From positions 62,001 through 126,000 of the forward strand of contig NZ_JAUSXT010000001.1 in assembly GCF_030816235.1 (NCBI RefSeq): a DNA stretch of 64,000 nucleotides, written 5' to 3'. Below, one piece after another: positions 35,263 to 59,423 of this stretch. This DNA is from Microbacterium sp. W4I4. GTDB taxonomy: Bacteria; Actinomycetota; Actinomycetes; Actinomycetales; Microbacteriaceae. Made by a program: the position numbers and the translations under genes. The first letter of the stretch is position 1, and every line of letters starts with the position of its first letter. A model generated the notes under the pieces. The model saw only the letters and a list, made by a program, of their open reading frames with translations, searched no databases and was not told where the DNA came from.

Positions 35263-37047
35263 GTGAGCACTCGAGCAACGCGCGGAACGAGACGGCGCAC
35301 GGTCGTCGCGCTCGCGGTGATCCTGACCGTCCTGTGCGCCTTCGTCTTCCGGCTGGTCGACATCCAGGTCGTGCACGCCGACGATCACGTCGCCGAGTCG
35401 CTGGGCCAGATGAGCAGCTCCTCGACGGTCCCCGGCGCCCGAGGCGACATCGTGGACGCCAACGGGACGGTGCTCGCCCAGGGAGCGTTCGTCTACGACT
35501 CGCAGCTGGATCCCAAGCTGATCAACGACTTCGAGACCAAGCCGGCCCTGAAGAAGAAGGCGAAGATGCCCTGGTCGGAGGCCAGCGAGAGGATCGCCGA
35601 GATCGTCGGGATGACCGGAGACGAGGTCCGCGCTCTCGTGTCCGCGAAGCTGGCGGCGGATCCGACCAGCCAGTACGCGAAGCTGAAGAACGGCCTGTCG
35701 ACCGATCAGTACCTCGCCCTGCGCGACCTCAAGCTCGCGTACGTCCACAGCACGGCGCGGCCCGTGCGGGTCTACCCCAACGGCGCCGTCGCGGGAAACC
35801 TCGTCGGCTTCCTGAACGGGGCGGGCAAGGCCGAGTACGGTATCGAGCGGATGCAGCAGCAGTGCCTCGCCGCGACGAGCGGCACCAACACGTACAAGCG
35901 CGGCCAGGGCGGCGTGCGCATTCCGGGCAGCGAGCGCACCGTGCCGGCCGTCGACGGCGGCACCGTGCAGCTCACGATCGACAGCGATCTCAACTGGTAC
36001 CTGCAGCAGATGATCGCCGAGGAGGCGCAGCGTCAGGGAGCCATCTCGGGCAGCGTCACCGTGGTCGAAGTGAAGACCGGCAAGATCCGCGCCGCGGCCG
36101 AGTACCCCTCGGTGGATCCCAACGACATCAACGCCGTGGATCCCGAGTACTGGCGCTCCCACATCTTCTCCGACGCGCACGAGCCCGGATCGACCTTCAA
36201 GGCGGTCACCGCCGCGACCATCATCGACCAGGGCAAGGCCACCTGGTCCTCGCACGTCAGCGCGAAGTCACGCGAGAAGCTCCCCAACGGGCAGGTCATC
36301 AACGACGCGTTCCCGCATCCGCAGAACGAATACACCCTCGCAGGTGCGCTGATCGACTCCTCGAACGTGGCGCTGTCGAAGTTCGGCACGATGGTCGACC
36401 CTGTGACGCGAGCCGACTACCTCGAGCGGTTCGGCGTCGGCCACAAGACCGCGATCGGGTTCCCCGCCGAGCAGAAGGGTCAGGTCATCGACCCGGCGAA
36501 GTGGGACGCGCGGACGCTGTACACCACGACCTTCGGGCAGGCGTTCACCGTCACTCCCGCGCAGCTCGCGGGTGCATACCAGGCGCTCGGCAACAACGGG
36601 AAGAAGATCGACCTGTCGCTGGTGGAGTCCTGCACCGACGCGGACGGCACGGTGCACAAGGCGCCGGAGCCTGCGAGCGAGCAGATCATCAAGCCGGGCA
36701 CGGCCAAGGAGGTACTGCGGATGCTGGAGAACGTCGCCGTGCAGGGCGGCAACGCCCGCGCCATCGAGATCCCCGGATACCGGATCGGCATCAAGACGGG
36801 CACCGCAGAGAAGGCCAACGGCCGCGGCGGGTACAAGAAGGGCATCTACTTCACGAGCATGATCGGCATCGCCCCGATCGAGGACCCGCAGTACATCGTG
36901 GAGGTCACTCTCGACGAGCCGACTAAGATCAGAAGTTCGGCAGCGAACGCCGTCGCCTTCCAGCAGGCGATGACCCAGGTGCTCAAGACCTACCGCGTCG
37001 CGCCGTCCTCGCAGCCGATGGAAGAGCTGCTTCCCAAATTCGACTAG
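35263..37047 (+). CDS. ftsI: Septal transpeptidase FtsI (penicillin-binding protein)
   Basis: A 594-residue class B penicillin-binding protein that crosslinks septal peptidoglycan. One N-terminal membrane helix (about 14-33) anchors it. The pedestal domain follows, then the transpeptidase with Ser310-x-x-Lys313 (EPGSTFKAV), Ser366-Ser-Asn368, and KTGT at 511-514. GTG start. The next gene is murF; murE, which usually lies between them, is absent from this place. Confidence 0.96.
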   Translation: MSTRATRGTRRRTVVALAVILTVLCAFVFRLVDIQVVHADDHVAESLGQMSSSSTVPGARGDIVDANGTVLAQGAFVYDSQLDPKLINDFETKPALKKKAKMPWSEASERIAEIVGMTGDEVRALVSAKLAADPTSQYAKLKNGLSTDQYLALRDLKLAYVHSTARPVRVYPNGAVAGNLVGFLNGAGKAEYGIERMQQQCLAATSGTNTYKRGQGGVRIPGSERTVPAVDGGTVQLTIDSDLNWYLQQMIAEEAQRQGAISGSVTVVEVKTGKIRAAAEYPSVDPNDINAVDPEYWRSHIFSDAHEPGSTFKAVTAATIIDQGKATWSSHVSAKSREKLPNGQVINDAFPHPQNEYTLAGALIDSSNVALSKFGTMVDPVTRADYLERFGVGHKTAIGFPAEQKGQVIDPAKWDARTLYTTTFGQAFTVTPAQLAGAYQALGNNGKKIDLSLVESCTDADGTVHKAPEPASEQIIKPGTAKEVLRMLENVAVQGGNARAIEIPGYRIGIKTGTAEKANGRGGYKKGIYFTSMIGIAPIEDPQYIVEVTLDEPTKIRSSAANAVAFQQAMTQVLKTYRVAPSSQPMEELLPKFD

Positions 37048-50971: not shown

Positions 50972-51595
50972 TCAGAGCCGGGCGCTGCGTGCGGCGGTGA
51001 CCACGCCGGTCAGGGTCAGCTCGAGGAAGGCGATCAGGTCCTCAGGGCGGTGCGTGGGGGGTCGCGTCGACACATCGCCCAGCTCAGCGGCCAGCGCGAC
51101 GAAAGTCTCCTCGGCGAACGCCACCCAGGACCGCAATGCCAGGCGCAGCGCGGCGCTGTCGGGCTCACCGAGCTCGATCAGCGCCTCACGCAGCCGTTCG
51201 GCGTTCGCGGCTCTCGCCTCGTCGACGAGGGCGCGCACGGTCGGGTCGCCGCTGGCGGGTCCGCGGACGAGGGAGAAGAACGTGCCGCGGTGGTCGGCGA
51301 CGAAGCTCGTGATCCGCACGAGCACATCGTGCACGCGCTCCTCGGGGTCCAGTTCCGGCCGGGGGAGCGTCGCATGCAGCAGTGCATCGCGTGCGGCCTC
51401 GACGACGGCGCGCTGCATGCCCTGGCGCGTGTCGAAGTAGTGGAAAATCAGTGCGCGCGACACGCCCCCGCGTGCCGCGAGCACATCGATGGTCAGGTCA
51501 TCGAGCGAATGGTCGGCGAGGAAGCTCACCCCGGCGGAGATCAGCTGAGCGCGACGTGCGTCCGGAGTGAGGCGGACGCGACGCTCGACGGACAT
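50972..51595 (-). CDS. TetR-family regulator of the DUF6230/DUF6114 operon
   Basis: A 207-residue TetR-type repressor. The HTH at about 16-62 includes 'LTIDVLAARGGVSRALIFHY', followed by a nine-helix ligand domain. It is divergent from a three-gene operon, and the gap holds a perfect 17-base palindrome (51621-51637) placed over both promoters. TAGGAT (51607-51602) six bases before its ATG makes it a leaderless gene. The ligand is unknown. Repression of itself and of the operon is strongly suggested. Confidence 0.9.
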   Translation of the reverse strand: MSVERRVRLTPDARRAQLISAGVSFLADHSLDDLTIDVLAARGGVSRALIFHYFDTRQGMQRAVVEAARDALLHATLPRPELDPEERVHDVLVRITSFVADHRGTFFSLVRGPASGDPTVRALVDEARAANAERLREALIELGEPDSAALRLALRSWVAFAEETFVALAAELGDVSTRPPTHRPEDLIAFLELTLTGVVTAARSARL

Positions 51596-51620
51596 GAGGC
51601 GATCCTATCGGCCCGTCGGT

Positions 51621-51637
51621 ATTGACTCGGAGTCAAT
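51621..51637. promoter_or_regulatory. TetR operator and operon promoter
   Basis: ATTGACTC-G-GAGTCAAT, a perfect inverted repeat. For the rightward operon TTGACT (51622-51627) is the -35 inside the operator, and TATTCT (51644-51649) is the -10, 16 bases on. A bound repressor would cover the -35 and also the -35 region of tetR itself. Confidence 0.85.
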
Positions 51638-51687
51638 GAACGGTATTCTGGCTACGCGCCGATGACGACGCGAGCACTGGAGGATCG

Positions 51688-52305
51688 ATGAAGTTCCGTA
51701 ACCCGAAGAAGCTGATCACGAAGGCCACCGCCACGCACGCGGGCCGGATCACCCTGGCCGCGGTGCCCGTGGGCATCGTCGCCGCCGTCCTGATGGGCGG
51801 GGTCGCGCAGGGGCAGGTGCCCGTCTCGTTCGCCGTGTCGGGCAGCCAGTTCCAGATCAGCGCGAGCCTGCTGGACGGCACGGGCTTCTCGCAGTACGCC
51901 GGTGTCACGAAGGACACCGAGGGTGGCGAGCACTCGGTCGCCATCGCGAACATCAAGAGCGCCACGCTCGCCGACCTCTGCCAGTCGGTCGTCTCCGAGA
52001 CGCCTCTCGGCAAGGTGGGCGTGCTGATCAAGGCGGGTGGCGGCGGCAACCCCGCGAGCGCCTCGGACCTGCAGATCGGCATGACGGGACTCGGGGGCGA
52101 CGCCTCGTTCGGGAACATCCGCATCGGCGTCGACGCCTCGACGGTGAACACCGGCGCGAAGGGGTCGGCGGGCGACTTCGCGCAGGATGCCGACACCGTG
52201 ACCATCAAGAACCTGCAGCAGACCGCGTGGAGCACCCAGGCATCCGTCTTCACCCTCACGGGCATGACGCTGGAGCTCACGGACGGATCGCAGGGATGCT
52301 TCTGA
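51688..52305 (+). CDS. DUF6230 protein (membrane-anchored, exported domain)
   Basis: A 205-residue protein of DUF6230. A basic N-terminus and one hydrophobic helix (about 20-40, 'ITLAAVPVGIVAAVLMGGVA') lead to an exported domain rich in Thr/Ser/Gly and probably beta, with 'AQDADTVTIKNLQQTAW' near the end and two cysteines. Members are known from Streptomyces and relatives next to DUF6114; function is unknown. GGAGGA lies three bases before the ATG. First gene of the TetR-controlled operon. Confidence 0.8.
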   Translation: MKFRNPKKLITKATATHAGRITLAAVPVGIVAAVLMGGVAQGQVPVSFAVSGSQFQISASLLDGTGFSQYAGVTKDTEGGEHSVAIANIKSATLADLCQSVVSETPLGKVGVLIKAGGGGNPASASDLQIGMTGLGGDASFGNIRIGVDASTVNTGAKGSAGDFAQDADTVTIKNLQQTAWSTQASVFTLTGMTLELTDGSQGCF

Positions 52306-52316
52306 GCGAAGGCGTC

Positions 52317-52799
52317 ATGGCATCCGAAGAGCACACCGTGACCGACGACGGGCAGATCACCGCCCACGGGCAGAAGCCGGAGCGCGCCGAATCGGCGTTC
52401 CGGACCTGGCGACGATCCCGCCCGTTCATCGGCGGAGTGCTGCTGGTGATCTCCGGGATCGAGATGTTCTTCTCGGGCCAGCTGGACTTCGGCGAACTGC
52501 ACATCCAGCTCGGCATCGAAGGTCTGCAGGCGACCATCATCCCGATCCTGCTGGTGCTGCTGGGCATCCTCGCGGTCACCATGCCCGCGCACCACATCTT
52601 CTACGGTGTGGTCGCCCTCGCCGTGGCGCTGTACTCCCTGGTGGGGGTCAATCTCGGCGGCTTCATCATCGGCATGCTCCTGGGCTGCGTCGGCGGGATC
52701 CTCGTGGTGGCCTGGATGCCGAAGGGGTCACGACGGCGCTCGGCTGCGGCTGACGGCACGGATGAGGATGATTCGGATGCAGAGGGGGCCGACGCGTGA
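52317..52799 (+). CDS. DUF6114 four-helix membrane protein
   Basis: A 160-residue protein of DUF6114. The polar N-terminus is followed by four membrane helices at about 36-53, 66-87, 92-110 and 112-133, and an acidic tail with 'DGTDEDDSDAEG'. It could be the membrane partner for the two exported proteins coded beside it. The ATG at 52317 (AAGG upstream) is preferred; an ATG seven codons earlier overlaps the DUF6230 gene. Its stop overlaps the next start (GTGA). Confidence 0.8.
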   Translation: MASEEHTVTDDGQITAHGQKPERAESAFRTWRRSRPFIGGVLLVISGIEMFFSGQLDFGELHIQLGIEGLQATIIPILLVLLGILAVTMPAHHIFYGVVALAVALYSLVGVNLGGFIIGMLLGCVGGILVVAWMPKGSRRRSAAADGTDEDDSDAEGADA

Positions 52800-53530
52800 G
52801 CCGGCGCCCCACACGCTCCATCACCGCGGTCGCTGCGCTGTGCCTGCTTCTCACACCGCTCATGGTCGGTGCGGCCGCCTCCACCGCGGTGCGCCCGGCG
52901 GTGTGCATCCCGCTCCTGTGGTGCCCGAAGCCGTCGCCGACGCCCACGCCGTCGCCGACCACGTCGACTCCCGGCATCCCGCTTCCCGGCATCCCTCTTC
53001 CGACGGCCCCGGCGGTTCCCGGAGTGCCGACGCCGAGCGCCCCTGAGACGACGCAGCCCGATGAGACCGCCCCGGATGCGACGCCCGCGCCGGCCGTGCC
53101 GGATGAGGGCGCCCCGATCTTCACGAAGACGCCGGCGCAGATGTCCTCGAAGGGACTGTCGTTCACCGGTCTGAAGGGCATCAGCCTGGTGACCGTGCCG
53201 ACGATCGACGGGGGCAGCATCCGTGCGCTCAAGATCAGCGCCGACACGATCACCATCACCGGCTTCGCGCTCTCCGTGCGTCCTGCCGGCGGTCCGGGCC
53301 TCGTCACGGACGCCGACACCATGACTCTGCGAGGGCACGTCTCGGTCTATCTCGGCTCGCTCACAGCGACCGCGCAGAACGGGAAGTCGCTCACCATCGG
53401 GGCGGACACACCGCCGTCGCTGGATGATGTGGAGCCCGGGCTGCTGCACGTGGACATGGGCCTGGTCGGCACGATCGCCGACTCGATCTCCTACACGAAC
53501 ACCGATCAGCGCATCGTCGCTGCGAAGTGA
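52796..53530 (+). CDS. Secreted protein of the DUF6230/DUF6114 operon
   Basis: A 244-residue exported protein. A signal peptide (about 1-30) is followed by 'VCIPLLWCP', a two-cysteine motif, a long Pro/Thr/Ser linker (about 40-105), and a beta-rich domain. That domain has 'ISADTITITGFALSV' and 'DADTMTLRGHVSVYLGSL', which resemble the 'DADTVTIKNLQQTAW' of the DUF6230 protein two genes upstream, so the two may share a fold. No enzyme motif is seen. GTG start overlapping the DUF6114 stop. Confidence 0.75.
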   Translation: MSRRPTRSITAVAALCLLLTPLMVGAAASTAVRPAVCIPLLWCPKPSPTPTPSPTTSTPGIPLPGIPLPTAPAVPGVPTPSAPETTQPDETAPDATPAPAVPDEGAPIFTKTPAQMSSKGLSFTGLKGISLVTVPTIDGGSIRALKISADTITITGFALSVRPAGGPGLVTDADTMTLRGHVSVYLGSLTATAQNGKSLTIGADTPPSLDDVEPGLLHVDMGLVGTIADSISYTNTDQRIVAAK

Positions 53531-53545
53531 TGCGACCGGGCCCCG

Positions 53546-54031
53546 TCAGCTCTTGACGCGTCCGCCGCGGAAGTGCGCGGGATCGTCCTCGGCGAGCGCG
53601 AGGGCGATCTTGCGCACGTGCGCATCGTCGACCACATCCATCATCTGGGCGAGGTCGTAGAACCCGACCTCGCTGAGTTCTCCGTCGGCCGGATGCGGCT
53701 CTCCCGACACCCAGGTGCAGCGGAAGGCGATGTCGATGTAGTCGACCTGGTCGCCGTTGACGTAAGTGATGCGCGGCAGCTGCTGCACCGATGCCAGCCG
53801 GTCGACGGAGACCACGACGCCGGCCTCCTCGAGACACTCCCGAGCCGCGGCGTCCGCCGGCTCCTCGCCGGGCTCGACGATGCCGGCGATCGTCTGCCAG
53901 GCTCCGTTGTCGGCCCGCTTGCCGAGCAGAACCTTCTGGTCGCGGAACACCACGGCTGTGGCGCCGACGAGGGGGAGCGGTGCATGCCCGATGTGCTCGC
54001 GCAGGGCGATGACGAAGTCCGGAGTGGCCAT
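53546..54031 (-). CDS. NUDIX hydrolase
   Basis: A 161-residue NUDIX protein that hydrolyses nucleoside diphosphates linked to another group. The full NUDIX box spans residues 50-72, from 'GIVEPGEEP' to 'RECLEEAGV', including REUxEE. The substrate is not evident. The ATG at 54031 is chosen because TACGCT (54043-54038, minus strand) lies six bases upstream, so the mRNA is leaderless. It is convergent with the secreted protein gene. Confidence 0.9.
   Translation of the reverse strand: MATPDFVIALREHIGHAPLPLVGATAVVFRDQKVLLGKRADNGAWQTIAGIVEPGEEPADAAARECLEEAGVVVSVDRLASVQQLPRITYVNGDQVDYIDIAFRCTWVSGEPHPADGELSEVGFYDLAQMMDVVDDAHVRKIALALAEDDPAHFRGGRVKS

Positions 54032-55903: not shown

Positions 55904-59423
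<3,520 letters not shown>

Follow-up and report, generated by a model that had tools for sequence, protein, structure and literature searches.

Gene organization of the locus

The 64,000-nucleotide stretch of the Microbacterium sp. W4I4 genome analysed here (contig NZ_JAUSXT010000001.1, positions 62,001 to 126,000; hereafter the window) contains a three-gene operon encoding a DUF6230 protein, a DUF6114 protein and a third exported protein (P3). The operon is preceded by a divergent tetR gene and, between the two, a palindrome, and this gene order agrees with an earlier interpretation made from the letters alone (the sequence-only reading). The genes and the features within or next to them are as follows.

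50972–51595, minus strand: tetR, 207 amino acids, divergent from the operon (Pfam TetR_N and TetR_C_46, both above cut-off)
51679–51683, plus strand: GGAGG, likely ribosome-binding site of the DUF6230 gene (by eye)
51688–52305, plus strand: DUF6230 gene, 205 amino acids, product probably exported, relatives often named cholesterol esterase (Pfam)
51748–51813, plus strand: hydrophobic export signal of the DUF6230 protein, approximately residues 21–42 (hydropathy; end placed by eye and by analogy with the Geobacillus proteins P21 and P16)
52317–52799, plus strand: DUF6114 gene, 160-amino-acid membrane protein, probably with four helices (Pfam and hydropathy)
52796–53530, plus strand: P3 gene, 244 amino acids, product probably exported, with a signal sequence, a Pro/Thr-rich linker and a C-terminal beta domain
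53105–53527, plus strand: C-terminal all-beta domain of P3, residues 104–244 (AlphaFold2 model)

The coordinates confirm the tight coupling of the three genes described previously, with an 11-base gap between the DUF6230 and DUF6114 genes and a four-base overlap between the DUF6114 and P3 genes (GTGA, 52796–52799). The family assignments were likewise upheld by Pfam: the DUF6230 protein scored 155.2 bits against PF19741 (cut-off 27.5; residues 51–205 on profile positions 1–145), the DUF6114 protein scored 113.5 bits over the full PF19609 profile (cut-off 27.9), and the TetR protein scored 28.6 bits for TetR_N (cut-off 24) and 38.7 bits for TetR_C_46 (cut-off 27). The nearest PDB sequence to the TetR protein is 2qib (75.1 bits). 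For P3, no family was obtained from Pfam or NCBIfam at E≤1.

Conservation of the three-gene unit

The distribution of the genes was surveyed in two samples. The first consists of 80 named loci, the best 80 of 108 confirmed, from Microbacterium, Leifsonia, Arthrobacter, Sinomonas, Brevibacterium and other genera; these loci are not independent and were fetched with a DUF6230 query, so that DUF6230 is present in them by construction. The second consists of 396 genomes of the phylum, in which hits above cut-off were compared by position.

DUF6114 follows DUF6230 in all 80 named loci and P3 is present in 77, the contigs ending in the remaining three (L068, L069, and L098); four loci where a match runs across two frames were scored as present. 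None of seven tested window neighbours occurs in 55 of the 80 loci (at least six of these 55 are stretches shorter than 10 kb), indicating that the cassette stays whole in differing surroundings, and at least two of the seven are found in 25 loci, which have the lspA-rluD or dnaE surroundings of close relatives. In the 396 genomes, 35 DUF6114 and 35 DUF6230 hits were identified, of which 33 in each direction have their partner on the same strand no more than 600 bases away. Both unpaired DUF6114 hits (G026 and G098) adjoin a diverged DUF6230-like gene (L022 and L024), and the unpaired DUF6230 hits are a fragment of 57 positions, next to a DUF6114 fragment that scores below the cut-off (G352), and an extra copy (G062). 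P3 gave 16 hits, 14 of them within 2.5 kb of DUF6114 and the other two weak (E values of ∼4e-4 and 5e-4). DUF6114 and P3 are fused into one long protein in L114; a second fusion record (P0109) might be a reading-frame artefact. The three genes are thus a real unit that has been repeatedly kept: given the 80 of 80 and 77 of 80 occurrences and the 33 of 35 pairings, their homologues lie together and not, as the sequence-only reading had considered, usually apart.

Variants of the unit were also observed. Six Streptomyces-like loci (L115, L116, L117, L121, L123, and L130) contain a second DUF6230-DUF6114 pair with no P3 match and variable surroundings, which is a two-gene paralogous version. An expanded unit in L124 (genome G062) has three DUF6230-like and two DUF6114 genes alternating within a few kilobases, with no P3 match. 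A mirror-image three-gene cassette with identical scores in L111 (3080–7747) probably arose as an error in the assembly of a metagenome bin.

Operator and probable control by TetR

Three regulatory features were assigned to the intergenic region.

51621–51637, no strand: operator, the perfect palindrome ATTGACTCGGAGTCAAT with the core TTGAC-N5-GTCAA (window scan and relatives)
51622–51649, plus strand: promoter TTGACT-16-TATTCT, its −35 element inside the operator (promoter scan)
51602–51607, minus strand: possible −10 element TAGGAT of a leaderless tetR transcript, tentative (by eye; missed by the consensus scan)

The perfect 17-base palindrome reported between the divergent genes was found as described. 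It is the sole site in the window with three or fewer mismatches to its 16 fixed bases, and at least one such site occurred in 9 of 100 shuffled sequences. The proposal that it lies over both promoters holds for the plus strand, where it overlaps the −35 element of the only promoter-like site found in 51500–53700 (shuffle mean 0.1); for tetR the proposal is positional, since the same scan found no promoter on the minus strand.

Comparison of the named loci revealed a strong phylogenetic footprint. An adjacent divergent TetR gene lies beside DUF6230 in 60 of the 80 loci, and the core, allowing one of its ten fixed bases to differ, precedes the DUF6230 gene in 56 of the 60, compared with 2 of the 20 loci without such a gene (Fisher p=3.4e-12, a value that shared ancestry makes too small). 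In the latter two (L091 and L093), a TetR gene lies ∼1.3 kb away. The full 17-mer with up to three mismatches was detected in 41 of the 80 upstream regions and at none of 384 other places of the same loci. The pairing of TetR with this operator, as put forward by the sequence-only reading, is borne out by these counts, and from comparative sequence data it is highly probable that TetR controls the operon through the palindrome. The arrangement resembles that of TetR-type repressors with divergent target operons in its domains, its divergent layout and the position of the palindrome over a promoter.

A 15-base form of the operator has one perfect site and two sites with two mismatches in the 3.84-Mb genome (none in a backwards-read control), which suggests that TetR acts locally. 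The two imperfect sites lie outside the window, on contig 1 of G000 (36186–36200 and 784437–784451), and may be either further targets of TetR or chance occurrences.

Possible links to lipids and alkanes in related loci

Streptomyces-like loci read pfkA-pta-ackA-pyk-P3-DUF6114-DUF6230, in which we take the first four genes to be correctly named from their recognised N termini. Because pyk2 of S. coelicolor is SCO5423, according to PMC7494193, this order would make SCO5422–SCO5420 the P3, DUF6114, and DUF6230 genes, respectively. SCO5420, a cholesterol esterase gene, is reported in the same source to be upregulated almost 37-fold on Tween, and it is very likely the Streptomyces DUF6230 orthologue.

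A diverged DUF6230 protein from another class of the phylum exceeded the cut-off (39.6 bits); its profile match to DUF6230 scored 56.6, whereas 100 shuffles reached at most 17.7 and the reversed control 13.8. In the two loci inspected, this gene is followed by DUF6114, a TetR gene, and beta-oxidation genes. Pfam identified a TetR protein, a 3-hydroxyacyl-CoA dehydrogenase/enoyl-CoA hydratase, and an acyl-CoA dehydrogenase in one (L127), and a thiolase and a short-chain dehydrogenase in the other (L128).

A further link leads to P21 and P16 of Geobacillus thermoleovorans, which are described in PMC2676291 as exported, insoluble proteins induced by alkanes, more strongly by longer ones, with N termini resembling the S. 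lavendulae enzyme. Of six Geobacillus peptides, three (both N termini and one further) match the diverged DUF6230 set (p=0.0005 each, 2000 shuffles). P21 and P16 are similar to DUF6230 proteins in being exported, in their size (∼200 amino acids), in the match of their mature N termini to the diverged set, and in their induction by long hydrophobic chains, but differ in that they belong to a Firmicute, are compared by peptides only, have no DUF6114 partner shown, and do not respond to the fatty acid and glycerides tested.

The DUF6230 protein and the cholesterol esterase label

The DUF6230 protein has a single N-terminal hydrophobic stretch (best window, residues 21–39), which is followed by a possible signal-peptidase site, AQG/Q, located by eye. 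Sequencing placed the mature N termini of the related P21 and P16 after 38 and 45 residues, and both were obtained from the insoluble fraction (PMC2676291). The earlier view of the DUF6230 protein as anchored is not supported by the possible cleavage site or by the processed N termini of P21 and P16, although the latter two are insoluble.

Nor does the statement that DUF6230 has no assigned function hold. Among the matches listed, at least 10 of 120 DUF6230 relatives are named cholesterol esterase, and more carry this name in a second listing; most are nameless or named DUF6230 family protein. The DUF6230 protein of the window shares 39–86% identity with proteins so named, and the Tween-induced SCO5420 is the very likely orthologue introduced above. 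A 2007 study by Xiang et al. is reportedly the one tied to the actinomycete cholesterol esterase family. Xiang et al. are cited in PMC4098958. The system in the window is like the actinomycete cholesterol esterases (the S. lavendulae enzyme and SCO5420) in containing a DUF6230 protein with an export signal and shared names, and, of the two types of Streptomyces-like locus, one has the same DUF6230-DUF6114-P3 order; it is unlike them in having its own divergent TetR gene and operator. In the literature searched, DUF6230 was met only as an expression-table entry and DUF6114 nowhere, and no description of DUF6114 or P3 as cholesterol esterase partners was found.

In 74 DUF6230 sequences, Ser51 is invariant, and Asp138 (70 of 74), Ser100 (68), and His82 (61) are conserved; no His column is invariant. 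The motif GxSxG is absent from the mature region of all 74, its one match lying in the signal region. The predicted model is all-beta, except for N-terminal helices (blocks with predicted local distance difference test [pLDDT] scores of 42–48) and one three-residue turn, and the diverged relative has no serine in the stretch matching Ser51. A classical alpha/beta-hydrolase lipase or esterase was considered and is not supported, as GxSxG is absent from the mature region and the predicted fold is all-beta; the common occurrence of His82 leaves room for an unusual esterase.

DUF6114, P3 and the relationship between the two exported proteins

Hydropathy analysis of the DUF6114 protein revealed three segments, two of which have room for more than one helix, and it is probably a four-helix membrane protein. 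A sub-cut-off DUF6114 match in the Bacillus subtilis control genome may represent a Firmicute relative of this membrane protein.

The C-terminal domain of P3 was modelled by AlphaFold2 with block pLDDT scores of 85–97, except for two blocks at 68 and 74. The sequence-only reading had proposed related folds for the first and third proteins on the basis of shared segments. Such segments do exist (DADTVT in DUF6230; SADTIT and DADTMT in P3), and both models are all-beta. Profile comparison contributes little to this proposal: the probability was 8–13%, and against the score of 25.0 the best of 200 column shuffles reached 21.1 and the reversed profile already 21.7. From sequence, the relatedness of the two proteins is therefore weakly indicated.

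Comparison with the beta domains of Lpt lipid transport (the LptF jelly roll) gave no Foldseek match at E≤0.001 and Z values far below 8, and P3 matched no Pfam family at E≤1, whether LptA, LptC, LptF, or any other; the 87 rows of A2 likewise include no Lpt family with E≤0.1. With low Z values and neither a Foldseek nor a Pfam match, this resemblance is a lead only.

Proposed function and alternative explanations

A lipid-related role of the operon is fairly probable. In more specific terms, we lean towards an operon under TetR control whose products form a system at the cell surface for capturing or processing hydrophobic substrates with long chains, i.e. fatty-acid esters and perhaps alkanes or wax-like lipids. 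In such a system, TetR would keep both tetR and the operon repressed and would leave the DNA on binding a ligand derived from lipids, e.g. a long-chain acyl-CoA or a free fatty acid. The exported DUF6230 protein may contact the lipid as a hydrolase or a binder, with DUF6114 as its putative membrane partner; P3 would cross the cell wall on its Pro/Thr-rich linker and present a second beta domain beside DUF6114, and the freed acyl chains would enter beta-oxidation.

Several observations weigh against this proposal, and the induction data for a lipid-responsive operon are mixed. The orthology of SCO5420 is based on name and gene order. The other three of the six Geobacillus peptides fail against the diverged DUF6230 set, and none is convincing against the actinobacterial DUF6230 profile (lowest p among the six, 0.019). 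According to PMC2676291, palmitic acid, tributyrin, and trimyristin do not induce P21 or P16. Among genes named cholesterol esterase, which may or may not encode DUF6230 proteins, Sven_0933 of S. venezuelae is nitrogen-responsive (PMC3087709), SACTE_4612 of strain SirexAA-E responds to xylose and xylobiose (PMC12772271), and S. scabiei C9Z6Y6 is not suberin-specific (PMC4098958); in another study, C9Z6Y6 accounts for 33–39% of the lipid-class extracellular signal (PMC5158115). The 16 Brevibacterium loci have neither an adjacent TetR gene nor the core, and the core is missing in four of the 60 TetR-bearing loci (L079, L105, L108, and L110). DUF6230 is patchily distributed: it occurs in 22 of 396 genomes, and within the genus of the window, sampled by four genomes, only the genome of the window itself has it. 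Finally, the window neighbours that we take to be divIVA, lspA, rluD, a NUDIX protein gene, a sigma factor gene, and dnaE give no hint of a lipid role.

The strongest alternative, which we regard as possible but somewhat improbable, is that DUF6230 is a true, unconventional secreted esterase, with DUF6114 and P3 aiding export, anchoring, or substrate access. The names of its relatives, the induction of SCO5420 on Tween, and the conserved Ser51, Asp138, Ser100, and His82, from which a Ser-His-Asp set could be assembled, are in its favour, but GxSxG is missing, His82 is not invariant, the predicted all-beta fold is not that of an alpha/beta hydrolase, and the diverged relative lacks the serine. 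Conversely, it is unlikely, though conceivable, that the DUF6230 cholesterol esterases are surface lipid carriers rather than hydrolases and form a three-part machine with DUF6114 and P3. Such a machine would pass long-chain lipids or alkanes across the Gram-positive wall, with P21 and P16 of Geobacillus as far relatives, and would be analogous in function, with a separate origin, to the beta-domain relays of the Gram-negative Lpt and Lol systems. The occurrence of His82 in 61 of 74 sequences lowers the odds of a carrier.

Equally doubtful is a general unit for envelope or cell-wall maintenance, without a lipid substrate and induced by a toxic amphiphile sensed by TetR. The export signals, Pro/Thr-rich linker, multipass membrane partner, and TetR control would suit it, as would the fact that some genes with the cholesterol esterase name respond to nitrogen or sugars, but the lipid and alkane induction and the beta-oxidation neighbours would then be coincidence, and no efflux or resistance gene was recognised within the unit. 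That inherited gene order has joined three genes with no joint work is very improbable, because the surroundings retained by close relatives in 25 loci are outweighed by the cassette kept in 55 loci without them (some of them short contigs), the DUF6230-DUF6114 linkage in other classes, and the DUF6114-P3 fusion.

The surface system that we favour is in part already known: a name for the DUF6230 proteins has been published, and their gene very likely responds strongly to lipid in Streptomyces. What is new, within the literature searched, is that DUF6230 has constant partners, together with the P3 family, the operator footprint, the connection to alkane-induced Geobacillus proteins, and the doubt on the enzyme label. 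Two unknown families and one unnamed family thereby become a single testable unit, DUF6114 gains its first functional context, and an old label comes under test, since this cholesterol esterase family lacks GxSxG, has a predicted all-beta fold, and almost always has a membrane-protein gene next to its own. A carrier system, if true, would represent an undescribed route of long-chain lipid uptake in soil actinobacteria.

Other observations in the window

The gene that we take to be dnaE is split over two frames (55904–59423). Its start lies in the open reading frame beginning at 55904, and the rest of the recognisable gene is in another plus-strand frame (open reading frame 56640–59423), perhaps reflecting a sequencing error in an essential gene.

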